Below, piece by piece: positions 24,168 through 35,704 of a stretch of DNA of 35,704 bases (its first letter is position 1; each line of letters begins with the position of its first letter). The translations under genes and the position numbers were made by a program. This DNA comes from Candidatus Chloroploca asiatica. GTDB lineage: Bacteria; Chloroflexota; Chloroflexia; Chloroflexales; Chloroflexaceae. The notes beneath the pieces are model-generated. The model ran no database searches. It was not told where the DNA came from and was given only the letters and a program-made list of their open reading frames with translations. The stretch covers positions 1-35,704 of the forward strand of contig NZ_LYXE01000126.1 in the NCBI RefSeq assembly GCF_002532075.1, written 5' to 3'.

Positions 24168-24214
24168 CGAAGCACCGGATTGCAGGGCGTCAGCCCTCAA
24201 TGGATAGGAGTCTC

Positions 24215-24550
24215 ATGGAAATCACGATTACGACACGCAACCAGCTTACCCTTGCCACCCTTGTGGGTGAACTTGATGGCAAGACGGCGCCGACAGCTCA
24301 AGAGCGGATTGTGCCGCTCTGTCAGGGGGGGAGTCGTGTGCTGCTCGATATGAGCCAGGTGACCTATATGTCGAGCGCCGGTCTACGGCTGATGCTCTTG
24401 CTCTATCGGCAGGCCACGGGCACGGGGGCAACTCTTGCGCTGGCCGGGCTTTCAGAGGATCTGCAGGATACAATGTCGGCCACCGGTTTTTTGACCTACT
24501 TTACGCTCTACGATACCGTCGAGGCGGCTGAGGCGGCGCTGGCTCAGTAA
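24215..24550 (+). CDS. STAS-domain anti-sigma-factor antagonist (first)
   Basis: 111 aa single STAS domain. VLLDMSQVTYMSSAGLRLML (residues 42-61) holds the phosphorylation site; S54 aligns with the regulatory Ser of SpoIIAA/RsbV, while the preceding Asp is Ser here. In partner switching the unphosphorylated form binds an RsbW-type kinase and the phosphorylated form releases it. The candidate kinase is at 27128-27550 and the phosphatase at 27561-28823. The ATG has TAGGAG 4 nt upstream. It begins the 11-kb co-directional cluster and precedes GlgX by 22 bp. Confidence 0.92.
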   Translation: MEITITTRNQLTLATLVGELDGKTAPTAQERIVPLCQGGSRVLLDMSQVTYMSSAGLRLMLLLYRQATGTGATLALAGLSEDLQDTMSATGFLTYFTLYDTVEAAEAALAQ

Positions 24551-24572: not shown

Positions 24573-26699
24573 ATGAGTAATGCAGATCTGCAACGCATTG
24601 ATATTAATCCGACGCATACCTACAACGGCTTCAGGTTGCGTCCCGGCAAGCCGTTGCCGTTTGGGGCGACGCTGGTGCCGGGCGGCGTCAATTTTTCGAT
24701 CTATTCGAGCCATGCGACGGCCTGTACGCTGGTGCTATTTGTCAAAGGTCAGCCGCAACCCTATGCCGAGATTCCCTTTCCCGAGGAGTTTCGGATTGGC
24801 AATGTCTATGCGATGATTGTCTTTGATCTTGACTATGAAAATATCGAGTATGGCTACCGCATGGATGGTCCCTTTGATCCACCAGCCGGCCATCGTTTTG
24901 ACCAGAGCAAGATCCTGCTTGATCCGTATGCCAAGGCGATTGGCGGGCGTGATGTCTGGGGTGTGCCTCCCGATTGGAGCAATATCTATCACTATCGGGG
25001 CCGTCTTACCTTTGATGATTTTGACTGGCAGGGCGACCGCCCGTTGCAGATTCCCAGCGAAGACCTGATTATCTACGAGATGCATGTGCGTGGGTTTACC
25101 CGTCACGCTTCGTCGGGCGTCAAGCACCCTGGTACCTTCGCCGCTATTCGCGAGAAGATTCCCTATCTCAAAGCGCTGGGGGTCAACTGCGTCGAATTGC
25201 TGCCGATCTACGAGTTTGATGAATTCGATGGAAGCCGTCCGCATCCCTGGGAAGAGGACAAGCTCCTGCTGAACTACTGGGGCTATAGCACGGTCGGCTT
25301 TTTTGCCCCCAAAGCGGCGTATGCGGCGACCGGGCGGCTGGGCATGCAAGTCGACGAGTTCAAAGCGCTGGTGCGCGAGTTGCACACCAATGGCATTCAG
25401 GTGTTGCTTGATGTCGTCTTTAACCATACCGCCGAGGGCAACGAGATGGGGCCGATGATCTCGTTTCGTGGCATTGATAACAAAACCTACTATATGCTCA
25501 CGCCCGATGGCTACTACTGGAATTTCAGTGGTACCGGCAATACCCTGAACTGCAACAACCCGCTCGTGCGCAACATGGTGCTCGACTGCCTCCGCTACTG
25601 GGCATCGGAATACCATATTGATGGCTTTCGTTTTGACCTGGCGGCCATTCTGGGGCGTGACCCGATCGGCATTCCGCTTTCGAACCCGCCGCTGTTGGAG
25701 AGTCTGGCGTATGACCCGATCCTGGCCAAGTGTGAATTGATCGCCGAAGCCTGGGACGCCGGTGGTCTCTACCAGGTCGGTTCCTTCCCCGCGTATGGGC
25801 GCTGGGCCGAGTGGAACGGCAAGTATCGCGACGATATGCGCCGCTTTCTCAAGGGCGATATGGATCTCATCGGCGCCGTCGCCCAGCGCCTTCAGGGTTC
25901 GCCTGACCTGTATGCGTGGCGTGGGCCGACCGCGTCGGTCAATTTCTTCTGTTGCCACGATGGTTTCACCCTCGCCGATCTGGTCTCGTATAACGACAAG
26001 CACAACGAGGCCAATGGCTGGGGCAATACCGATGGGGGCAACGACGACCATAGCTGGAACTGTGGGGTCGAGGGACCAACTGATGACCCCGAGGTCAATG
26101 CCCTGCGGATGCGTCAGATGAAGAACGCCTTTGCGCTGCTGCTGGTGAGCCATGGGGTACCGATGTTCCTCATGGGTGACGAGATTGGGCATAGTCAGCA
26201 GGGCAACAATAACACCTATTGCCAGGACAACGAGCTAAACTGGCTCGACTGGGGATTGGTCGAACGCAATGCCGAACTGTTGCGCTTTGTTCAGCGGTGC
26301 ATTGCCTTCCGCCATGCCCATCCTGTCCTGCGCAACCGCGAGCACCTGCGCAACTATGACTATGTTGGCAGCGGCTATGCCGACATTACGTGGCACGGTA
26401 CCCGCGCCTGGCAGTCCGACTGGTCGGGGACGAGTCGCATCATTGCCTTTATGCTCTGCGGCAAACATGCGAAGAGCGGGACGGTCACTGACAACTATAT
26501 CTATGTGGCGGCGAACATGTATTGGGATGCGTTGCCATTTGAGTTGCCCGGTCTGCCCGAAGGGATGCATTGGCATCTCTTTGCCAATACGGGGGCTGTC
26601 CCTGATGCGTATGAACCCGGCAGCGAACCACGGCTTGAGCCGCAGCACGAACTGCTGGTTGGTGGACGGAGTGTGATCATTCTGGTTGGACACGAATGA
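24573..26699 (+). CDS. glgX: Glycogen debranching enzyme / isoamylase-type GH13
   Basis: 708 aa, cytosolic. Hydrolyses alpha-1,6 branches of glycogen or limit dextrins. An N-terminal CBM48-like domain (FRLRPGKPLPFGATLVPGGV, NFSIYSSHA) is followed by the GH13 barrel. Catalytic residues: nucleophile D355 (DGFRFDLA), acid/base E392 (IAEAWDAGG) and D463 (FCCHDGF). LLDVVFNHTAEGNE and LVSYNDKHNEANG are typical of the GlgX/TreX group. Slightly longer than E. coli GlgX (657 aa). It lies between two STAS genes, with an 11-bp gap to the second, suggesting that carbon-reserve use is tied to the signalling genes (inference). Confidence 0.94.
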   Translation: MSNADLQRIDINPTHTYNGFRLRPGKPLPFGATLVPGGVNFSIYSSHATACTLVLFVKGQPQPYAEIPFPEEFRIGNVYAMIVFDLDYENIEYGYRMDGPFDPPAGHRFDQSKILLDPYAKAIGGRDVWGVPPDWSNIYHYRGRLTFDDFDWQGDRPLQIPSEDLIIYEMHVRGFTRHASSGVKHPGTFAAIREKIPYLKALGVNCVELLPIYEFDEFDGSRPHPWEEDKLLLNYWGYSTVGFFAPKAAYAATGRLGMQVDEFKALVRELHTNGIQVLLDVVFNHTAEGNEMGPMISFRGIDNKTYYMLTPDGYYWNFSGTGNTLNCNNPLVRNMVLDCLRYWASEYHIDGFRFDLAAILGRDPIGIPLSNPPLLESLAYDPILAKCELIAEAWDAGGLYQVGSFPAYGRWAEWNGKYRDDMRRFLKGDMDLIGAVAQRLQGSPDLYAWRGPTASVNFFCCHDGFTLADLVSYNDKHNEANGWGNTDGGNDDHSWNCGVEGPTDDPEVNALRMRQMKNAFALLLVSHGVPMFLMGDEIGHSQQGNNNTYCQDNELNWLDWGLVERNAELLRFVQRCIAFRHAHPVLRNREHLRNYDYVGSGYADITWHGTRAWQSDWSGTSRIIAFMLCGKHAKSGTVTDNYIYVAANMYWDALPFELPGLPEGMHWHLFANTGAVPDAYEPGSEPRLEPQHELLVGGRSVIILVGHE

Positions 26700-26710
26700 A
26701 AGGAAGAACC

Positions 26711-27034
26711 ATGGCCTTTACTTGTACCCTCACCCTGAACAACGAGGTTGCGCATATCACGCTGGCGGGCGAACTGGACGCTGCGGTCGCCCCGCAATTT
26801 CGGGCGAAGATCGAAGAGGCCGCCGCTGCCAAGGTCACGCGCCTCGTGCTCTTTATGAGCGAATTAGAATATATGGCGAGTGCTGGTCTTCGTTCGCTTG
26901 CTTTTGCCAAGCAGAAAATGGGTGCGAATGTCGATATTTATATGGTTGGCGTGCAAGAGACGGTTGCGGAAACGATCACGATGACGGGCTTTCACAACAG
27001 CGTGATCATGGTCGAGAGCTATGATGAAGCCTAA
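26711..27034 (+). CDS. STAS-domain anti-sigma-factor antagonist (second)
   Basis: 107 aa from ATG 26711, with AAAGGAAG upstream; an alternative ATG overlapping the GlgX stop is less likely. VAHITLAGELDAAVAPQF is the start of a STAS beta sheet and FMSELEYMASAGLRSLAFA holds the presumed phosphorylated S57, preceded by Ala rather than Asp. It is not a recent duplicate of the first STAS protein; identity is low outside the motif. Two antagonists with one kinase in the cluster suggest two inputs or two targets. Confidence 0.9.
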   Translation: MAFTCTLTLNNEVAHITLAGELDAAVAPQFRAKIEEAAAAKVTRLVLFMSELEYMASAGLRSLAFAKQKMGANVDIYMVGVQETVAETITMTGFHNSVIMVESYDEA

Positions 27035-27060
27035 GGGCAATGCGACGACGCTTGCTGCGT

Positions 27061-27114
27061 GAGCGATACCGAGTGGAGGCTGCGCCGGTGTGGTCACCTG
27101 GGGTAGCCTCGCTC
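27061..27114. promoter_or_regulatory. Folded leader candidate upstream of the HATPase gene
   Basis: Nested complementary segments: GAGCG (27061-27065) with CGCTC (27110-27114), GAGGCT (27076-27081) with AGCCTC (27105-27110), and an inner GGTG/CACC. It occupies the 93-bp gap between STAS and HATPase genes, much larger than other gaps in the cluster. Could be a structured RNA element; weak evidence. Confidence 0.3.
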
Positions 27115-27127
27115 AAGAGAGCAACCT

Positions 27128-27550
27128 ATGCACGTGCTCACTGTACCAGCCGATCTTGATTCACTGGATGCTGTCGGCAAATATGTGGTTGAGGCAGCGT
27201 CTCAGGCCGGGCTTGACCGCAAAGCGGCCTATCGGCTACGCCTGGCCGTTGACGAGATTATGACGAATATTATCAACTACGGTCACACCGAGGTCGGGCT
27301 TACGGGCGACGTGATCGTTCGAGCGGCGATTGAAGCTGACACATTGACGATCATCCTGGAAGATCGGGCGCGCCCCTTTGACCCCCGCGAACGGCCCGAA
27401 CCTGAAGACCTGGATCGCCCCCTCGAAGAGCGCAATATTGGTGGTCTCGGGGTCTATCTCGCGCTCAAAGGTGTTGACCATTTCAACTACGAATATGTTG
27501 ATCAGATGAACCGCAATATTTTTGTGATGTATCGACCTCTGCAAGCATAA
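27128..27550 (+). CDS. RsbW-like anti-sigma factor serine kinase (HATPase)
   Basis: 140 aa GHKL ATPase domain. The N box is LAVDEIMTNIINYGHTE (about residues 38-54), the G1 region LEDRARPFDP (about 78-87), and the G2 loop NIGGLGVYLALKGVD (about 102-116), as in RsbW/SpoIIAB. Such proteins phosphorylate STAS antagonists and sequester a partner, often a sigma factor or an enzyme. No sigma factor gene is in the window, so the target is unknown. The PP2C gene starts 10 bp downstream. Confidence 0.92.
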   Translation: MHVLTVPADLDSLDAVGKYVVEAASQAGLDRKAAYRLRLAVDEIMTNIINYGHTEVGLTGDVIVRAAIEADTLTIILEDRARPFDPRERPEPEDLDRPLEERNIGGLGVYLALKGVDHFNYEYVDQMNRNIFVMYRPLQA

Positions 27551-27560
27551 GGGTGGAGCT

Positions 27561-28823
27561 ATGGCGGCCCAGACGATCCTGATCATTGACGAACAAGCCG
27601 AGCGACGTAATCTGCTCCGCGACCAGCTTGAAGCCTTCGGCTATGTGGTGACGGCCCTCGACAATGGACGCGCAGCGCTTGATGTATTAAAGACCCAGCG
27701 TTTTGATCTGGCCCTGCTTGAACTTGGCTTATGGGGGGCGATCAATAGCTACCAGGTGCTGGATCGGATGCGCGCCACTGGTGCGCTCATGATGACACCG
27801 GTGCTCATGATTGCGCCCGACGATAGTGACCCTGGCCTGGCCCGCTGTTTCGAGATGGGGGCCGTTGATTATATCCCGGCTTCGTGTTTGCCCCCGGTCG
27901 TCAAGGCGCGGGTGCAGGGCATGCTGGCGCAACGTACGTTGCTTGAACATCAACAGAATGATGATCAGCAAGAGACCTTGTTGAAGATCGAGCGTGATGT
28001 CCAGATTGCCCGCCAGATCCAACTCGGTTTTCTACCCAGTCAGTTGCCGCAACTTCCAGGGTGGGAGATCGCGGCCCGGTTTCATCCGGCGCGTGAGGTC
28101 GCGGGCGATTTTTATGATGCTTTCATGCTCACCCAGAACCGGCGCGTTGGCTTTGTGATTGCCGATGTGTGTGACAAAGGGGTTGGGGCGGCCCTCTTTA
28201 TGTCTTTGTCGCGAAGCCTAGTGCGGGCTTTTGCCCAGCAGCACTATAGCTTGAGTGATTGGACCAACGTGCTTGGGGGTTCGGGGGATACCTTTACCCC
28301 GGTCGCACGGCGCGAAAAGGGGCGGCAGGCTCTCCCCACGATTGGGGCGGCCTCGCTCAAGAATGCGATGGTGCTGACGAACAACTATATCACCGACAAC
28401 CATCTGGATATGAATATGTTCGTCACGCTCTTTTTCGGCGTCTTTGATCCAGTGACCGGTGCGCTGATCTATGCGAATGGGGGCCATTGTCCGCCGTTGA
28501 TCGTTGGCCCTGATGGGGTGCGCACGAAGCTCGCGATGACCGGGCCGGCGGTAGGCTTGATCCCCGGGGCCGATTTTAACATTGCCCATGCCCAGATCGA
28601 TCCGGGTGAGATCCTCTTCTGTTATAGTGACGGGGTCACTGATGCTCGTAACCCCGAGCGTCAGTTCTTTGGCGAAAAGCGCCTGCTTCAACTCCTGGCC
28701 CAGCCAGCCGCGTCGGCGACCGAGGTGCTCGATCGGTTCGAACGCAATCTTCAGGCCCATATTGCCAGTGCTGACCAGTTTGATGACATTACTATGCTGG
28801 CGGTTCAACGGATCGCCTCCTGA
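27561..28823 (+). CDS. Degenerate receiver domain fused to SpoIIE-type PP2C phosphatase
   Basis: 420 aa. Residues 5-125 form a CheY-like receiver (ILIIDEQAERRNLLRDQLEA). The phospho-acceptor Asp position reads ALLELGL, with Glu54, and the conserved Lys is Ala/Ser (DYIPASCL), so it probably cannot be phosphorylated and may mimic the active state. A short coiled coil (HQQNDDQQETLLKIERD) leads into the SpoIIE/PP2C domain. Its metal-site motifs are intact: REVAGDFYD, IADVCDKGVGAALFM, CYSDGVTDARN and FDDITMLAV. It should dephosphorylate the STAS proteins. What replaces receiver phosphorylation as input is the open question. Confidence 0.93.
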   Translation: MAAQTILIIDEQAERRNLLRDQLEAFGYVVTALDNGRAALDVLKTQRFDLALLELGLWGAINSYQVLDRMRATGALMMTPVLMIAPDDSDPGLARCFEMGAVDYIPASCLPPVVKARVQGMLAQRTLLEHQQNDDQQETLLKIERDVQIARQIQLGFLPSQLPQLPGWEIAARFHPAREVAGDFYDAFMLTQNRRVGFVIADVCDKGVGAALFMSLSRSLVRAFAQQHYSLSDWTNVLGGSGDTFTPVARREKGRQALPTIGAASLKNAMVLTNNYITDNHLDMNMFVTLFFGVFDPVTGALIYANGGHCPPLIVGPDGVRTKLAMTGPAVGLIPGADFNIAHAQIDPGEILFCYSDGVTDARNPERQFFGEKRLLQLLAQPAASATEVLDRFERNLQAHIASADQFDDITMLAVQRIAS

Positions 28824-28864
28824 GGCTTGATCATGATCCATCCCCAAAGGGAGACTGTGCATTG

Positions 28865-29689
28865 ATGGTTGAGTGTGTCGTCTTTCATTCGGCTCGTGCG
28901 GGCATCGGCAAATCGACGCTCGCCGCCAATACTGCCGCCCTGCTCGCTCGGCGTGGTCAACGGGTTGGCCTGCTTGATGCCAATGTGCAGGAGGGTGGGC
29001 TGACCTCTTTTTTTGGCCTCGGGGCCAAGGCCATTGGCTGCACCCTCAACGACTTCTTGCTTGAGCGCTGCGAAGGTATGGACGCCTGGTATGATGTCAC
29101 CCCCAACTGGCAGCTTGCGCCTGCGTCTGTTATGCTGCCTCAGGCAGGTTCCATCTGGCTGATGCCGGCCAGTCCGCGGCTCCGTGATCGTGCGGCCTTG
29201 TTGCAGACTGGCTTTCGGATCGAGCGGATCACTGATGATCTGATCGCGACGGCAGAGTCGTTGCAGCTTGACACGCTCTTGATTGATACGCATGCCGGTA
29301 TTCAAGAAGAGAGTATGCTGGCGATGCATTCGCTGGCCGTTGCTCAGACGCTCGTCCTGGTGCTTGGGCTTGATCAGCCCGATTATGCGGGGACGGCGGT
29401 GGCGGTTGATATTGCCGAGACGCTGCGGGTCCCCCAGATTGTGCAGGTGGTCAATCAGATCAGTATGCTCTTTGATCCGGTACGGGTCAAACAAGAGTTA
29501 GCTCAGACGTATCGCCATCCTGTGTTGGCGTTGTTTCCGTATCATCCCGAACTTGCCGCGTTGGGTAGTGCCGACCTGTTTGTGTTGCGGTATCCCAAGC
29601 ATGCGATCACCCGTGTCTTTGAGCATCTCGCCGAGGCCTTGCTCACCCACGTTGATCCGCTCCAGTCCATCGAACAACCGCCCGGTTAA
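28865..29689 (+). CDS. MinD/ParA-like P-loop ATPase (first), variant Walker A
   Basis: 274 aa from the ATG at 28865 (a TTG three bases earlier is possible). The deviant Walker A is RAGIGKS at 11-17: Arg takes the place of the signature Lys, which in E. coli MinD (K11) contacts ATP across the dimer. Switch-type motif LIDTHAGIQEES replaces the usual DxPAG. LVLGLDQPDYAGTAVAVDIA and VVNQISMLFDP complete the fold. No C-terminal amphipathic helix is evident. It is paired with a second family member 28 bp downstream. Expected to dimerise and act as a spatial or membrane-linked switch; cargo unknown. Confidence 0.87.
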   Translation: MVECVVFHSARAGIGKSTLAANTAALLARRGQRVGLLDANVQEGGLTSFFGLGAKAIGCTLNDFLLERCEGMDAWYDVTPNWQLAPASVMLPQAGSIWLMPASPRLRDRAALLQTGFRIERITDDLIATAESLQLDTLLIDTHAGIQEESMLAMHSLAVAQTLVLVLGLDQPDYAGTAVAVDIAETLRVPQIVQVVNQISMLFDPVRVKQELAQTYRHPVLALFPYHPELAALGSADLFVLRYPKHAITRVFEHLAEALLTHVDPLQSIEQPPG

Positions 29690-29716: not shown

Positions 29717-30481
29717 ATGTCAAAGATTATCTCGATCCACTCGTTTCGTGGTGGCACCGGTAAATCGAATACGACCGCGAATATCACCGCACTCCTGGCT
29801 CAGCGTGGCCTCCGGGTTGGGGTGGTTGACACTGATATTCAGTCGCCGGGCATCCATGTGCTCTTTGGCCTGGATGAAGAGCATATCAGCCGCTCGCTGA
29901 ACGATTATCTCTGGGGCAAGTGCGAAATTAAAGACGCAGCGATGGATGTGACCTCGATTTTGCAACAGTTCAAGCCCGGTCTCAAGGGGCAGGTCTTCTT
30001 GATCCCGTCGAGTATCAAGGCAGGTGAAATCGCCAAGATTCTCCGCGAGGGCTATGATGTAGGCTTGCTCAATGATGGGTTTCAACAATTGCTCGAAGAT
30101 CTGCAACTCGATGTGTTGATGATTGATACCCACCCTGGTCTTAATGAAGAGACGTTGCTCTCGATTGCGATCTCGGATGCACTGGCGATCATTATGCGCC
30201 CCGATAACCAGGATTATCAGGGCACCAGTGTGACGGTCGAGGTCGCCCGCAAGCTTGAGGTGCCTAATTTGCTTCTGGTGGTCAACAAGGTGCCGCCGGT
30301 CTTTGACTTTGACCATGTGCAGCAGAAGATCGAGCAGACCTATAACTGTCGTGTTGGTGCAATTCTGCCCCACTCTGACGAAATGATGGTCTTGTCGAGT
30401 TCAGGCATTTTTGTTTTGAAATATCCCGACCACCCGATGACGGCGCGGCTCGAACGGCTGGCATCGTTGCTCATCGCGTAG
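29717..30481 (+). CDS. MinD/ParA-like P-loop ATPase (second), variant Walker A
   Basis: 254 aa. Walker A is RGGTGKS at 11-17, again with Arg at the signature-Lys position. Other motifs: VVDTDIQSPGIHVLFGL (Walker A' region), LMIDTHPGLNEETLLS, and IIMRPDNQDYQGTSVTVEVA, which parallels the first copy's LDQPDYAGTAVAVDIA. The shared layout (SLNDYLWGKCE versus TLNDFLLERCE) shows that the two arose by duplication and diverged. The pair may form a heterodimer (inference). A GAGAAGGG site precedes the ATG. Confidence 0.9.
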   Translation: MSKIISIHSFRGGTGKSNTTANITALLAQRGLRVGVVDTDIQSPGIHVLFGLDEEHISRSLNDYLWGKCEIKDAAMDVTSILQQFKPGLKGQVFLIPSSIKAGEIAKILREGYDVGLLNDGFQQLLEDLQLDVLMIDTHPGLNEETLLSIAISDALAIIMRPDNQDYQGTSVTVEVARKLEVPNLLLVVNKVPPVFDFDHVQQKIEQTYNCRVGAILPHSDEMMVLSSSGIFVLKYPDHPMTARLERLASLLIA

Positions 30482-30501
30482 ACAATGTTCAAGGGGATGT
30501 G

Positions 30502-31656
30502 ATGGATCGCCCTGCAACACAACCTGGATGGGGGTTTCTGGTGCGGATGGCCCTTCTGGGTGCAGTCCTCTATGCTGCCACCTCGTGGGTGACTGTCTTT
30601 GCGACGACGAGTTCAAGTGCGATTGCAGGTAATCTGCGCCCCGGGGTGGCGATCCCGATCTTCTTCGGGTTTGCCTTTGGCCCGCTGGTCGGGTTTGTGG
30701 TGGGCTTTGGGGGCAATCTGCTGGCTGATACGCTTACCGGGTTTGTCCAGTTTCCCCTTGATGCTTCCTCGCCCCGGGCGCTGGCGGCGAGCCTGCAGAT
30801 CAATTGGCAAGTTGCGAATGGACTGTTGGGCCTGATCCCCGGTTTTGCCGTGCTGCGTCAGTGGTGTTATCAGACGCGGGAAGGCTTGCTGAAAGCGCTC
30901 GCGTTGACGTCGTTCGCTGTTGTTGGCGCCGGTCTCTTTGCGGCGGTGCTCGATCCCTTTGTCTTTGTCTATGAGGATCAGACGACGATCTGGCAGACGG
31001 TTGCGCGTGACAATCTTCCTCTGGTGCTGATTAACTGGATCTATGCGGCCGTTATTGTGCCGATCTTGCTCTTTAATTATGCGTATCGTCACCTCTATGG
31101 GCCAGCGATGTTGCGCGCTGGTTTGATGCAGCGCGTCTTGCTCACCGTCGTGATCTCGGCGGCCGTGCCGATCATTATGCTTAGCATCTTTCTCCTTGAA
31201 GCAAATGCGCGCCTCAATGGAGGGTGGTCGGGTGCCTTTGGCGGGGTCTTTTTTCAACTGGCCGTGACGATTTTGATGACCACGGTCTTTATTCTTACCA
31301 ATGCGGCGTTGATGGCGCAGAGCATGACCAGGCCACTGATCGAGTTGAGCGCGTCTGCCCGTGCGATGGAAAAAAATACGCTCACACTCGCTCAGGCCGA
31401 GACGTTGAAGGCTACCACAGGTGACGATGAAATCGCGCAGTTGAGCCGGGTCTTTGGCACGATGGCTCAGGAGGTGATCCAACGCGAGCAGGAGTTGCGC
31501 AAGCATGTGCAGGAACTCCAGATCATGATTGATGAACATAAACGCAGCGATCAGGTCAAAGAGATTGTTGAAACTGACTTTTTCCGTGATCTGAAGCAAA
31601 AGGCACGCGCGATGCGTGAACGTGGCAAGGCGCAGCCTGCCTCGACCAATGAATAG
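30502..31656 (+). CDS. ECF-S-component-like membrane protein with HAMP domain
   Basis: 384 aa from ATG 30502, AAGGGG just upstream. The first 190 residues have about five or six membrane segments with PGVAIPIFFGFAFGPLVGFV and GFGGNLLADTLTGF, the style of ECF transporter substrate-binding (S) components. Two more helices (LTVVISAAVPIIMLSIFLLE; LAVTILMTTVFILTNAALMA) are followed by a HAMP domain (RPLIELSASARAMEKNTLT, DDEIAQLSRVFGTMAQEV) and a coiled coil (REQELRKHVQELQIMIDEHK). There is no kinase, cyclase or phosphatase output. It looks like a sensor that signals through a partner, plausibly the MinD-like or PP2C proteins beside it. Confidence 0.82.
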   Translation: MDRPATQPGWGFLVRMALLGAVLYAATSWVTVFATTSSSAIAGNLRPGVAIPIFFGFAFGPLVGFVVGFGGNLLADTLTGFVQFPLDASSPRALAASLQINWQVANGLLGLIPGFAVLRQWCYQTREGLLKALALTSFAVVGAGLFAAVLDPFVFVYEDQTTIWQTVARDNLPLVLINWIYAAVIVPILLFNYAYRHLYGPAMLRAGLMQRVLLTVVISAAVPIIMLSIFLLEANARLNGGWSGAFGGVFFQLAVTILMTTVFILTNAALMAQSMTRPLIELSASARAMEKNTLTLAQAETLKATTGDDEIAQLSRVFGTMAQEVIQREQELRKHVQELQIMIDEHKRSDQVKEIVETDFFRDLKQKARAMRERGKAQPASTNE

Positions 31657-31687
31657 CCCAACATGACATAACTAAAGCCGGGTGCTT

Positions 31688-33034
31688 ATGCTGAAACGAC
31701 AACTCCTCCTCCCTGGTGAATTCGGACGGGTGGGCTTGCTGGCTTTTTTGCTCTTTACGAATACGCTGGTGCTCGAGTCGAGCGAGGTGATTGCAACGAG
31801 TGGCTTTGTGAGTCAGGTGGGCGTTGATCAGATCCTGGTGGTCTGGGCAACGGTCATGCTGGTGGCGATGGTGACGTCGAGTCTCTATGCCCTTGTGGTT
31901 GATCGCATTGACCGTGTCTGGCTCGGTGTGGCCCTCTTTTTTGGGGCCAGTCTGGTCTACCTGGCCTTGTATGCGCTCTTTGTTGCCGGTGCGCCGTCCT
32001 TTCTTACCTATGGCTTGCTGGCGATCTTTACCGAACAGCAGTGGACACTGCTGCCATTGCTGGTCTGGACGCTCGCGAATGACCTCTTTTCCGTCGCTGC
32101 TGCCAAGCGGCTCTTTCCGCTCTTGTCGGCGTCGGTGATTATCGGTGGCGTGGTTGGCAATGCACTGGCCGCCGCCCTTGGTCAGTGGCTTGGTGAGGCG
32201 ACGCATCTGCTGCTGGTGCTCAATGGGGTGCTTCTGTTGCTCGGGGCAGCGGCGCTTGCGGTGATACGCCCCCGTCTGACGCTGCCCCCACCCTCTGCGG
32301 AGGCCGGTGATCACGTGAGAGATATGGTCAAAGAGGGCTTCGAGTTTGTCCGCGAGGTGCCAGCGTATCGTTTTCTTGCGCTCATCATGATTTTGATGGG
32401 TTTTGCGCTCAATACGATCCAGTATCAATTTCTGGTTGACCTGGCGGCGCACTCTACCGGCCCGGGCCAGTTGCAGACCTTTTATGGGCTTTTCAAAATC
32501 GCCAGCGTTCCGGTGCTGCTCGTGATCCAGGCCTTCCTGACGCCCTGGTTGCTCAAACAGCCCGGGTTCAAAGGGATTTTTGCTGTGATGCCTGGCAGTA
32601 TGTTCCTGGCGTTGCTGCTTATGCTCTTCTGGATTGCGCCCGTGGGTGGCTTGATGTTGACCGGCGCCATCATTGGCAACTACGTCATCCGTCTCGTGCT
32701 GACGGGCATTGATCAGCCGGCGCGCCAGGCCTTCCAGGGCCTGATCCCTGATCAACGCCGTGGTCGTGTCAGTACCTTTATGGAGGGCTATCTCTATCCG
32801 GCGGGTTCGATCCTGAGTTGTCTCGTGACCGGAGGGGTGGTGCTGCTGATGCAGCAGGGTTGGCTTGCGCCCCTGGTGGGGCGTAGTCTCTATCTTGGGA
32901 TTGCCACGATCAGTGCGCTGGTTGCCCTGATGCTGGCGCGTCAACTCTATCGCAGTTATGACCAGAGTATGCTCAATTGGCGGCTCAAGCGCCGCCAGCA
33001 TCGGCGGAGTGTGCTCGATCAATTGGAATTCTAA
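31688..33034 (+). CDS. NTT/Npt-like (ATP/ADP translocase-related) membrane protein
   Basis: 448 aa, about 11-12 membrane helices with an MFS-like two-half layout. LESSEVIATSGFVSQVGVDQ near the start and LPLLVWTLANDLFSVAAAKR, then LFPLLSASVIIGGVVGNALA, are reminiscent of the nucleotide transport (TLC/NTT) family of plastids and intracellular bacteria. Free-living homologues often serve other roles. A basic tail (LKRRQHRR) faces the cytosol. ATG at 31688 is used; an in-frame GTG six bases upstream is possible. Position among signalling genes suggests a sensor or transporter of nucleotides or related compounds (inference). Confidence 0.72.
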   Translation: MLKRQLLLPGEFGRVGLLAFLLFTNTLVLESSEVIATSGFVSQVGVDQILVVWATVMLVAMVTSSLYALVVDRIDRVWLGVALFFGASLVYLALYALFVAGAPSFLTYGLLAIFTEQQWTLLPLLVWTLANDLFSVAAAKRLFPLLSASVIIGGVVGNALAAALGQWLGEATHLLLVLNGVLLLLGAAALAVIRPRLTLPPPSAEAGDHVRDMVKEGFEFVREVPAYRFLALIMILMGFALNTIQYQFLVDLAAHSTGPGQLQTFYGLFKIASVPVLLVIQAFLTPWLLKQPGFKGIFAVMPGSMFLALLLMLFWIAPVGGLMLTGAIIGNYVIRLVLTGIDQPARQAFQGLIPDQRRGRVSTFMEGYLYPAGSILSCLVTGGVVLLMQQGWLAPLVGRSLYLGIATISALVALMLARQLYRSYDQSMLNWRLKRRQHRRSVLDQLEF

Positions 33035-33040
33035 ACGTCT

Positions 33041-34414
33041 ATGCGTGCACTTTCATGGCGCGAACATCTTGCTTTGCTTGTTCAGTTTGCCCTGTTCTCT
33101 CCGGCTGTGGCACGCTTTCCTTTTCTTGATCAAGAAATAGTGAAAGCATATCAATTGAAACGACTTCAAAAACTGGTTACACTTGCCTATGATCATACAT
33201 GGTTTTATCATCAAAAGTATGCAGCCGCAGGTATGCATCCTTCGGATATCCAGAGCTTCGAGGCTTTCAAGGCCTTGCCGACCGTGACCAAGGACGAGTT
33301 GATTGCCCATGGCGAGGCGATGATTGATCGGCGTATCCGGCGCGACCGCTTGATCGTCTCGCGCAGTTCGGGATCGTCGGGGAAGTTTGTGTCGGTCTAT
33401 CTCGATAGCCAGAATTTTATTACGCAAGCGTTGCAGGTTATGCGTATGCTCAAAGAGTTTTATCCTGCTTATCAACCAACCGATCGCGAGTTGCTTGTCT
33501 ATACGTCGCCCTATCCGGTGCGCTCGCTGGGGGGCTTTTACCGGGTTTACTATGTCCATAATCTCTGCCCAGCCGCCGAGATCTTTGCCACGATGCGCCG
33601 CCTGCGTCCGGCGATTCTGGCGATCTATCCCTCGATCCTGCGCGAGCTCGTTACGCTCTATGGGGCGCAGTGTGCTACCCTGGGTGTCAAGGTCATTGTC
33701 ACCAATTCAGAACACGCGACGCAAGAGGAACGCGATTATTTTGCCGCGGTCTTTGGCTGCCCGGTCTTCGATGAGTATTCGTCCGAAGAACTCGCCAGCA
33801 TTGCCCAGCAGTGTGTTCACAAACGCTATCATCTTGTCCAGGATTGTTCCTATATCGAGTTGCTCCATCCTGATTGTGATGGCCCGGTGGCGCCTGGTCA
33901 ACTTGGCGAGCTCGTTGGAACCTGTTTGATCAATGCGGCGATGCCGATCATTCGCTATCGTCAGGGCGATATGGCGATCGCGGCTGACCATGACGCCTGT
34001 TCGTGTGGCAAGACGGCTCCGGTGTTGGCTGAATTGTCGGGACGCAAAAATACGGCCTTCAAGCAAGCCAATGCCCCCGATATCCCGTCGGGGCGGATCC
34101 TCGACTGGTCGTACGATCTGGTGCTGAAGCTGGCACTTGATGTTCGTGAGTTCCAGATCATCCAGGAAGAGCTCCATAGCGTCAGGGTACGGCTTGTCAC
34201 CGGCCAGCACTATCAGGCTGAACGTGACAATGCCCTTGTTACCCAGCATTTTTGCCAGACGTTCGGCCACCATTTTCAGGTTCGCGTGGAATGCGTGCCG
34301 TCTATTGCCAGAACCCGTTCGGGCAAACACATCCCGATTCAGTCGCTGCTGGGCGCTGCTTCCGGGGCGGGCGAGGCGGCAGGATCGATGACCAGAGGAG
34401 AAACCACATCATGA
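33041..34414 (+). CDS. PaaK/CapK-like adenylate-forming enzyme
   Basis: 457 aa. A phenylacetate-CoA ligase-type ANL enzyme: P-loop SRSSGSSGKFVSVY near residue 109, LAIYPSILRELVTLY, EYSSEELASIAQQC, and PIIRYRQGDMA with the ATP-ribose Asp. A Cys-containing DACSCGKTAPVLAELSGR segment matches the PaaK hinge and metal-type region. The C-terminal lid ends without an obvious catalytic Lys that I can assign. Could activate a carboxylate as acyl-AMP/CoA, perhaps to modify a protein or lipid. Start is 6 bp after the NTT-like gene; its stop overlaps the next start (ATGA). The first 150 bp are more AT-rich than the neighbours. Confidence 0.85.
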   Translation: MRALSWREHLALLVQFALFSPAVARFPFLDQEIVKAYQLKRLQKLVTLAYDHTWFYHQKYAAAGMHPSDIQSFEAFKALPTVTKDELIAHGEAMIDRRIRRDRLIVSRSSGSSGKFVSVYLDSQNFITQALQVMRMLKEFYPAYQPTDRELLVYTSPYPVRSLGGFYRVYYVHNLCPAAEIFATMRRLRPAILAIYPSILRELVTLYGAQCATLGVKVIVTNSEHATQEERDYFAAVFGCPVFDEYSSEELASIAQQCVHKRYHLVQDCSYIELLHPDCDGPVAPGQLGELVGTCLINAAMPIIRYRQGDMAIAADHDACSCGKTAPVLAELSGRKNTAFKQANAPDIPSGRILDWSYDLVLKLALDVREFQIIQEELHSVRVRLVTGQHYQAERDNALVTQHFCQTFGHHFQVRVECVPSIARTRSGKHIPIQSLLGAASGAGEAAGSMTRGETTS

Positions 34415-35460
34415 GCAGCGAAACCGACTCTGATGATTTGACGGCTCTCGTTCGTGGCATGAAGACGGTCACGTCTCCGATGCGGACGTTGCTTGCAGAT
34501 CTGCACCGCAAACTGGCCCCGTTGTCTGATGGCCATCTTGCCGCGACTCTGCCCGAGTTGATGCGGGCCGATCCGAACTGGTTTGCTCTCTGTGTGGTTG
34601 ATACCAAAGGGCGGCTGTATGAAAGCGGTGATAGCCAGCAGGCGTTTACCATGCAGGCGCTGGCGCATCCGTTTGTGTACGGTCTGGCCTTGATGGAAGA
34701 AGGTCGAGACGCGATTCTGGCGCATGTCGGGGTCGAGCCCGTTCACGAGGGGTTTCGCTTGAGCGATGAGGCGGTGTTGCCGTTGCCCAATCCGTTGGTC
34801 GCCTCGGGTGCGCTGGCAACGATGGCGTTGCTGCGTGGCGCGAGTGTCACCGAGCGTCTCGAGAAGAATCTGGCCTTTTTTCGCCGTCTTGCGCACCGTG
34901 AACTCGCCATTGATGCGACGATCTTTACGGCAAGCCGCGCTGCTGGTCATCGCCACCGTGCTCTGGCCCATCTGATGTGTGAACGTGGGTTGCTCGCTGA
35001 TGGGCTGGAAACGACGCTCGATCTCTTCTTTCAGCAGCAGGCCCTGCTGGTGAATACACGTGATCTCGCGATGATGGCGGCGACCCTGGCCAACCAGGGG
35101 CGCAATCCGGTGAGCAATGAAGAGGTGCTTGCCCCGGCCTATGTGCGCGATGTGCTGAGTGTGATGTATACCTGTGGTATGCATGCGCTGGCCGGCCACT
35201 GGGCTTATCGGGTTGGCTTGCCTGCCGAGGGCAGCAGTACCGGCGCGATGATGCTGGTGGTACCGGGGCAACTGGGCCTGGCGGTCTTTTCGCCGCTCCT
35301 GAATGACCAGGGCCTCAGCTTGCGCGGCATCAAGGCCTGCGAAGCCTTCACGGATCACTTTGGCCTCCATATGCTCGCTCCGCCCGAACAACGCACCAAA
35401 CTCCAGGAAGCACTCAGTATGCGTGGATCTGCCGCAGCGGCGCGTTCGTCAACGCCGTAG
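34411..35460 (+). CDS. Glutaminase-fold protein without the catalytic dyad (likely pseudoenzyme)
   Basis: 349 aa. Matches the GlsA family along its length: AFTMQALAHPFVYGLAL, PNPLVASGALATMALL, TRDLAMMAATLANQGRNPVS, MYTCGMHALAGHWAYRVGLP and VVPGQLGLAVFSPLL. The Ser-Lys dyad of glutaminases (SxxK in QSISK) reads A83-L-A-H86. Other substrate-contact positions also differ: the Asn of NPxxNAGA is A131, the SE motif is lost near 174, NRA is HRA (H182), and the Tyr of GMYD is H258. Glutamine hydrolysis is therefore unlikely; binding of a ligand or a structural/signalling role is proposed. ATGA overlap with the PaaK-like gene implies coupling. AGAGGAG lies upstream. Confidence 0.85.
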   Translation: MSSETDSDDLTALVRGMKTVTSPMRTLLADLHRKLAPLSDGHLAATLPELMRADPNWFALCVVDTKGRLYESGDSQQAFTMQALAHPFVYGLALMEEGRDAILAHVGVEPVHEGFRLSDEAVLPLPNPLVASGALATMALLRGASVTERLEKNLAFFRRLAHRELAIDATIFTASRAAGHRHRALAHLMCERGLLADGLETTLDLFFQQQALLVNTRDLAMMAATLANQGRNPVSNEEVLAPAYVRDVLSVMYTCGMHALAGHWAYRVGLPAEGSSTGAMMLVVPGQLGLAVFSPLLNDQGLSLRGIKACEAFTDHFGLHMLAPPEQRTKLQEALSMRGSAAAARSSTP

Positions 35461-35504
35461 CCAGGTTAGACTAGGGCGATTGCATTATGCGAAACCGGAT
35501 ACAA

Positions 35505-35704
35505 CGAGGCACCCGCAAGGGGTACCCGTACCGGGGCGGGGCACCCGCAAGGGGTACCCGTACCGGGGCGGGGCACCCGCCAGGGGTGCCCCTACACCGG
35601 GCCCGCCCCCCGGCCCTGTAGGGGCACCCCTGGCGGGTGCCCTGGCGGGTGCCCTGGCGGGTGCCCTGGCGGGTGCCCTGGCGGGTGCCCTGGCGGGTGC
35701 CCTG
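35505..35704. repeat. Palindrome plus 12-bp tandem repeat cluster at the window end
   Basis: Two direct copies of a 33-bp unit (starting GGCACCCGCAAGGGGTACCC) lead into a perfect 26-bp inverted repeat (35571-35596 with 35617-35642; 20-bp loop). At least six exact tandem copies of TGGCGGGTGCCC follow (35631-35702), running off the edge. Same architecture as 5992-6144. It follows the last gene of the signalling cluster and could form a very stable transcript end. Confidence 0.92.

Follow-up and report, generated by a model that had tools for sequence, protein, structure and literature searches.

What might a member of the GlsA family of serine-dependent glutaminases (PF04960) do once its active site has been replaced? 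The question is raised by a gene of Candidatus Chloroploca asiatica, described as a filamentous anoxygenic phototroph [PMC6180586], located on the forward strand at 34411-35460 of the window, by which we mean the whole 35,704-nucleotide stretch analysed. The window makes up the entire source contig (G000:C125) of a 5.84 Mb genome. The open reading frame starts with an ATG at 34411, its stop codon ends at 35460, and it encodes 349 aa, so the original prediction had its coordinates and strand right. From Pfam alone the product would be named a glutaminase; such a name is not reason enough to place it in glutamine metabolism. We lean towards the view that it is a pseudoenzyme of this family, serving as a non-catalytic adaptor in a module of HAMP-tail sensors, MinD-like ATPases and partner-switch proteins.

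Catalytic residues and predicted fold

The Pfam Glutaminase profile (PF04960) matches residues 41-321 over profile positions 1-285 of 286, with 276.2 bits against a cut-off of 27 (E 3.5e-82). This full-length match above the Pfam cut-off places the protein within the GlsA homology family. Its score against the NCBIfam glutaminase equivalog TIGR03814 (224.0 bits) lies below the cut-off of 255.4, which is passed by an intact sister (L007, 371.2 bits) and the canonical paralogue of the same cell (L014, 330.9 bits).

Alignment to human GLS from the PDB puts T46, A83, H86, A131, S175, H182, F206 and H258 in the place of human Y249, S286, K289, N335, E381, N388, Y414 and Y466, the last five of which we take to be the human numbers of the substrate contacts. 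All eight catalytic or substrate positions checked are replaced. In human glutaminase, Ser286 is the nucleophile, Lys289 is the base, and Tyr249 belongs to the lid loop [PMC10912226]. The place of the Ser-x-x-Lys dyad is taken by A83-L84-A85-H86 (34657..34668, forward strand), as judged from S286 and K289 and from the intact sisters. Every substitution named in the original prediction was recovered (A83, H86, A131, the lost SE, which is A174-S175, H182, F206 and H258), and the replacement of the lid Tyr by T46 adds one more. The glutaminase loop PAKSGV has also become PAEGSS. Judged from this alignment, the catalytic residues have been lost, and the protein very probably has no glutaminase activity.

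Our pocket table and trees comprise 31 glutaminase domains, and leave out the fragments L011 and L017, duplicate loci, G394 and the viral-contig copies L131-L138. The residues S, K, N335, N388, Y414 and Y466 are kept in 26 of these domains and all lost in the other five, hereafter the dead proteins. These are the window copy, its counterparts in two congeners (86 and 85% identity; genomes G001 and G002, Ca. Chloroploca mongolica and Ca. Chloroploca sp. Khr17), and two copies (54 and 47%) from G025, the uncultured Chloroflexaceae SRR4030105_bin.95, a metagenome-assembled genome of short contigs that is 85% complete. Five sequences from four genomes make a small set, on which conservation tests have low power. 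None of the five holds the Ser-x-x-Lys of active glutaminases; all carry Ala, with H, T or N at the Lys site. The Ala/His pair, whose conservation among homologues had been proposed as a check, recurs in all three Chloroploca species and breaks down in the other two dead copies, where the Lys site is T or N. A conserved Ser-Lys dyad elsewhere in the pocket, which the original prediction had named as evidence against itself, was rejected: no lysine occurs among the 125 positions invariant across the five dead proteins, so these sequences share no dyad at a new place.

The glutaminase fold is predicted to be retained. An AlphaFold2 model of moderate confidence from an 8-row alignment (pLDDT 77.5, pTM 0.80) was used throughout, and one from a 5-row alignment (pLDDT 39.8) was set aside. 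The top structural matches of the model are glutaminases, among them mouse glutaminase C (3ss5_A; Z 39.7, 1.9 Å over 301 residues) and Micrococcus Mglu (Z about 38), with a best Foldseek E of 1.9e-24. Stretches below pLDDT 50 include 110-122, aligned in sequence with the loop ahead of the N335 site, and 255-271, aligned with the Y466 segment; both are pocket-closing loops in glutaminases. Eight intact relatives share 70 invariant columns; the five dead proteins all keep 43 of these and all depart from them at another 14. Together with the full PF04960 match and the structural Z-score, the kept columns bear out, as far as a model allows, the claim that the fold outlived the residues of its chemistry. 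The 14 changed columns include all eight catalytic or substrate positions (hypergeometric 3.2e-7), an enrichment that is partly circular because these positions were examined for the very reason that the window copy lacks them.

A different active site built on the same fold would also account for a replaced pocket. The 125 invariant positions do include polar residues, e.g. T80, H180, R183 and C255. However, no conserved nucleophile/base pair could be named among them, none of them is a lysine, and the pocket-closing loops are poorly predicted, which makes a neofunctionalised enzyme very improbable.

Loss, retention and the former pocket

Relatives of the protein are sparsely distributed. Matches at E 0.001 were found in 9 of 61 kin genomes (the source genome counted), 19 of 158 class genomes passed E 1e-40, and PF04960 occurred in 13 of 400 Chloroflexota genomes with 17 matches, among which the three Chloroploca dead copies scored lowest (277-283 bits vs 304-422 for the other 14), a ranking that does not depend on the choice of pocket positions. 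The search for dead relatives beyond Chloroflexota consisted of scans of genome contigs, viral contigs and plasmids; the plasmid scan returned relatives in 205 records, all below 60% identity, the best among those listed having 37.7%.

The five dead proteins form a single clade (support 100/99), also when 16 pocket and nearby columns are masked. This clade is nested among intact sisters, and all eight proteins together are supported at 98/95 in the masked tree. The closest intact proteins, from G015, G085 and G030, are 46-47% identical to the window copy. The single clade suggests that the active-site residues were lost once, in one lineage. A distant subclade holds 18 of the 26 intact-looking domains; these have Ala at the E381 site and no fixed residue at the lid position, so changes at those two sites alone are no mark of a dead enzyme.

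A separate glutaminase with the S/K/N/N/Y/Y set is present in all three Chloroploca genomes, meaning that catalysis can be covered elsewhere. The dead protein might also form mixed oligomers with this intact-looking paralogue and tune its activity as a dominant-negative or modulating partner. Human glutaminase forms filaments in a manner coupled to catalysis [PMC10912226], which lends this scenario some appeal. Yet the two share only about 31% identity, and the paralogue sits on a distant branch and is encoded elsewhere. In G025 (85% complete), home to two dead copies, no such paralogue was found. We regard such a partnership as quite improbable.

The gene is retained by purifying selection, as judged from codon comparisons. 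Its dN/dS over the three Chloroploca species pairs is 0.146, 0.191 and 0.088, that of nine neighbouring genes is 0-0.19, and the open frame has equal length in the three species. The claim that the gene is under selection for retention thus held up, and decay was rejected. An old glutaminase decaying and kept by chance would fit the lower protein identity to the congeners (85-86% vs 90.5-100% for full-length neighbours) and the broken form in which a related genome carries the cluster (L047). We give it hardly any credence in view of the same-length frames, the dN/dS of 0.09-0.19, the 43 formerly invariant columns kept in every dead protein, and the fact that the raised divergence extends to synonymous sites (dS 0.84 and dN/dS 0.13 in codons 84-330), so that it is not simply relaxed selection.

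The divergence of the window copy from its congeners jumps within the gene; in the comparison with C. mongolica, dS goes from 0.17 in codons 1-83 to 0.84 in codons 84-330 (34660-35400), against 0.15-0.30 in the nine neighbouring genes. This jump looks like allele replacement by recombination.

If the fold is selected, is the former pocket still used? The main rival to an adaptor role holds that a different small molecule now occupies the former glutamine pocket and that the protein passes this signal on to the cluster, the kind of role that the original prediction had put forward as an example. The pocket was replaced rather than the fold, the cluster is rich in sensors, and one intact relative carries STAS and cNMP-binding domains in the same chain, a fusion that makes ligand control plausible in this family. 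Within Chloroploca, five of the eight positions (T46, A83, H86, H182 and F206) are identical in all three species, as a lineage-specific ligand might require. Across the dead clade, however, only A83 and F206 are constant and the other six vary: the K289 site reads H/H/H/T/N, the N335 site A/P/P/P/A, the E381 site S/A/A/S/M and the Y466 site H/R/R/R/P. Pocket columns average 2.2 states each, compared with 1.35 in the rest of the formerly invariant columns and 1.96 across all core columns. These means use ten pocket columns, which include two loop positions, one of them (K273) added after inspection; the enrichment test above used the eight catalytic or substrate positions. Such variation speaks against a single ligand site, newly adapted and common to all five dead proteins; a pocket freed from constraint accounts for it better. 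The idea that the old pocket senses a ligand fared poorly here, with weak power from five sequences, and the loops that would close the pocket (model 110-122 and 255-271) are among the poorly predicted stretches. We consider a ligand sensor unlikely.

Gene neighbourhood and the sensor tail

All genes described here lie on the forward strand. A second STAS-domain protein (24200..24550; Pfam) precedes the glycogen debranching protein GlgX (24573..26699; NCBIfam TIGR02100, 690.9 bits against a cut-off of 640.9). Three genes with Pfam assignments follow: a STAS-domain anti-sigma-factor-antagonist-like protein (26696..27034), an RsbW-type serine kinase (HATPase_c_2; 27128..27550) and a response regulator joined to a SpoIIE-type PP2C phosphatase (27561..28823). 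With STAS, serine kinase and PP2C genes together at 26696-28823, this is an Rsb-type partner-switch cluster. Two MinD/ParA-like ATPases come next, the first at 28862..29689 (Pfam) and the second at 29717..30481 (Pfam; NCBIfam minD_arch below its cut-off). Relatives of the second occur at E <= 1e-60 in 37 of 158 class genomes.

A membrane sensor (30499..31656) combines an ECF-S-like region and a HAMP domain, both from Pfam, with a conserved C-terminal tail of 43 aa (31501..31629), detected by hmmsearch with a profile of five tails including its own. Between the sensor and the glutaminase-fold gene lie an MFS-like membrane transporter (31682..33034; MFS_1 at E 2.9e-7, below the Pfam cut-off) and a PaaK-like adenylate-forming protein (33041..34414), the latter recognised by phmmer to the phenylacetate-CoA ligase 4r1l (E 2.9e-19), with all NCBIfam matches below their cut-offs and no Pfam match at 0.001. 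The stop codon of the PaaK-like gene and the ATG of the glutaminase-fold gene overlap by 4 bases. The contig ends at 35500-35704 in G+C-rich interspersed and tandem repeats (GGCGGGTGCCCT units), and related G+C-rich repeats occur downstream of the gene in L018 and L019.

The gene order from GlgX to the glutaminase-fold gene is identical in both congeners. The copy of the cluster in L047 (G009:C470) is broken: the response regulator is truncated, the kinase is matched in several pieces, the end of the MFS gene is joined to the last part of the glutaminase gene, and there is no PaaK-like match. Genuine decay and an assembly problem are both possible causes.

A gene for a protein with the sensor tail lies within three genes of the glutaminase gene in all eight clade members, dead or intact, which count as six loci when the three Chloroploca copies are taken once. 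Together with the gene order shared by the congeners, this agrees with the placement in a signalling cluster on which the original prediction relied. The tail gene is directly upstream in both G025 loci and in G015, there only as a fragment at the contig end with the sensor cut off; one gene separates the two in G030 and G085, and two genes (MFS-like and PaaK-like) in the three Chloroploca genomes. No tail gene was found at the 23 other tabulated glutaminase loci, seen over 4-20 kb for 15 of them and about 3.9 kb (~1.5 kb flanks) for eight. The stretches are of unequal length and the clade loci are related, so that the tail associations are non-independent events and the linkage should be read as an association and not as a functional test.

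The tail profile matched 16 of 44 sources searched, five of which had trained it: the window (31501-31629), L034-L038, L047, L086, L087, L094, L096-L100 and L104. The tail, of ~43 residues, is found in sensors of varied input (ECF-S-like, CHASE3-GAF, cNMP-binding, HisKA-receiver), mostly behind a HAMP-like domain; HAMP was detected at E 0.001 in 11 of 12 tail proteins run against Pfam, in two of them below the Pfam cut-off. A MinD-like ATPase gene is on the same stretch as the tail in 13 of the 16 sources, and the tail may be a docking or ATPase-activating part for this ATPase. In L104 (G085:C2), a HisKA-receiver-HAMP-tail protein is encoded directly upstream of a MinD-like ATPase, possibly a phospho-signalling version of the same tail/ATPase module.

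The ATPase also accompanies some of the glutaminases. At the intact loci of G030 and G085, a MinD-like ATPase gene stands between the glutaminase gene and the tail gene, whose product carries a cNMP-binding domain. The tail protein at the two dead G025 loci is CHASE3-HAMP-GAF, and the two short contigs that bear these dead copies gave no match to MinD-like ATPases. Among 26 ATPase-centred loci, nine had a tail, 17 had none and none had a glutaminase match, indicating that the module is not obligatory; MFS-like relatives (38-47% identity) lie beside the ATPase in four of these loci (L086, L087, L098 and L099). That sensor tail, MinD-like ATPase and glutaminase-fold protein make up one Chloroflexia module, which worked first with an enzyme under cNMP-type sensors and then with a dead adaptor under membrane or CHASE3-GAF sensors, is a tentative proposal that we hold with some doubt.

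A proposed adaptor role and known systems

Since the catalytic residues are gone and selection persists, the protein is most likely a non-enzymatic part of the nearby signalling system. An adaptor is the best-supported candidate because dead and intact members share a neighbourhood and not a pocket. We infer the following course for this role and its choice of partner. An active-looking glutaminase would already have been encoded near a sensor bearing the conserved tail, in many cases alongside a MinD-like ATPase. In one lineage a single loss would then have removed the nucleophile, the base and the substrate contacts, after which selection would have preserved the protein for a task that needs the fold and not the pocket. 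Most likely, it would act within the module of sensor tail, MinD-like ATPase and partner-switch proteins as an adaptor that binds other proteins or as an oligomeric scaffold, with its surface making contact with the tail or the ATPase.

Searches of open-licence PMC papers, judged by title and abstract start, turned up no pseudo-glutaminase of the GlsA family and no tie of this family to STAS, cNMP or MinD genes; the same literature, as far as it was covered, held nothing useful on MinD/ParA with partner switching or on MinD-like proteins with HAMP. If the adaptor role is correct, the glutaminase fold has turned into a signalling part in Chloroflexia. The natural series from intact to dead proteins, in one clade and one type of neighbourhood, makes non-chemical roles of this fold directly testable.

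The GlsA-type glutaminases, serine-dependent and beta-lactamase-like (Micrococcus Mglu 3if5/3agd, E. coli YbaS 1u60, B. subtilis YbgJ 1mki, human GLS/GAC), match the window protein over its whole length in sequence and fold. Unlike them, it has all eight checked positions replaced and falls below the TIGR03814 cut-off. The intact Chloroflexia glutaminases of G015, G030 and G085 come closer, sharing its clade, a nearby tail-sensor gene and 46-47% identity; they differ from it in their full active site, and the tail proteins of G030 and G085 have a cNMP-binding domain in place of a membrane or CHASE3-GAF input. The RsbU/RsbW/RsbV partner-switch systems likewise have the STAS, serine kinase and PP2C genes of the window cluster, and to our knowledge no glutaminase-fold member belongs to the systems of this type described so far. 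Finally, a glutaminase is tied to signalling modules, as in the window, in the glutaminase-STAS-cNMP-binding fusion of G463 (L114) and the glutaminase-STAS protein of G099 (L041). The STAS domains of these two are Pfam matches, whereas those of L039 and L023 were recognised by eye, with none reported by Pfam at E 0.001. Both fusions keep an intact active site and join in a single chain what the window encodes as separate genes.
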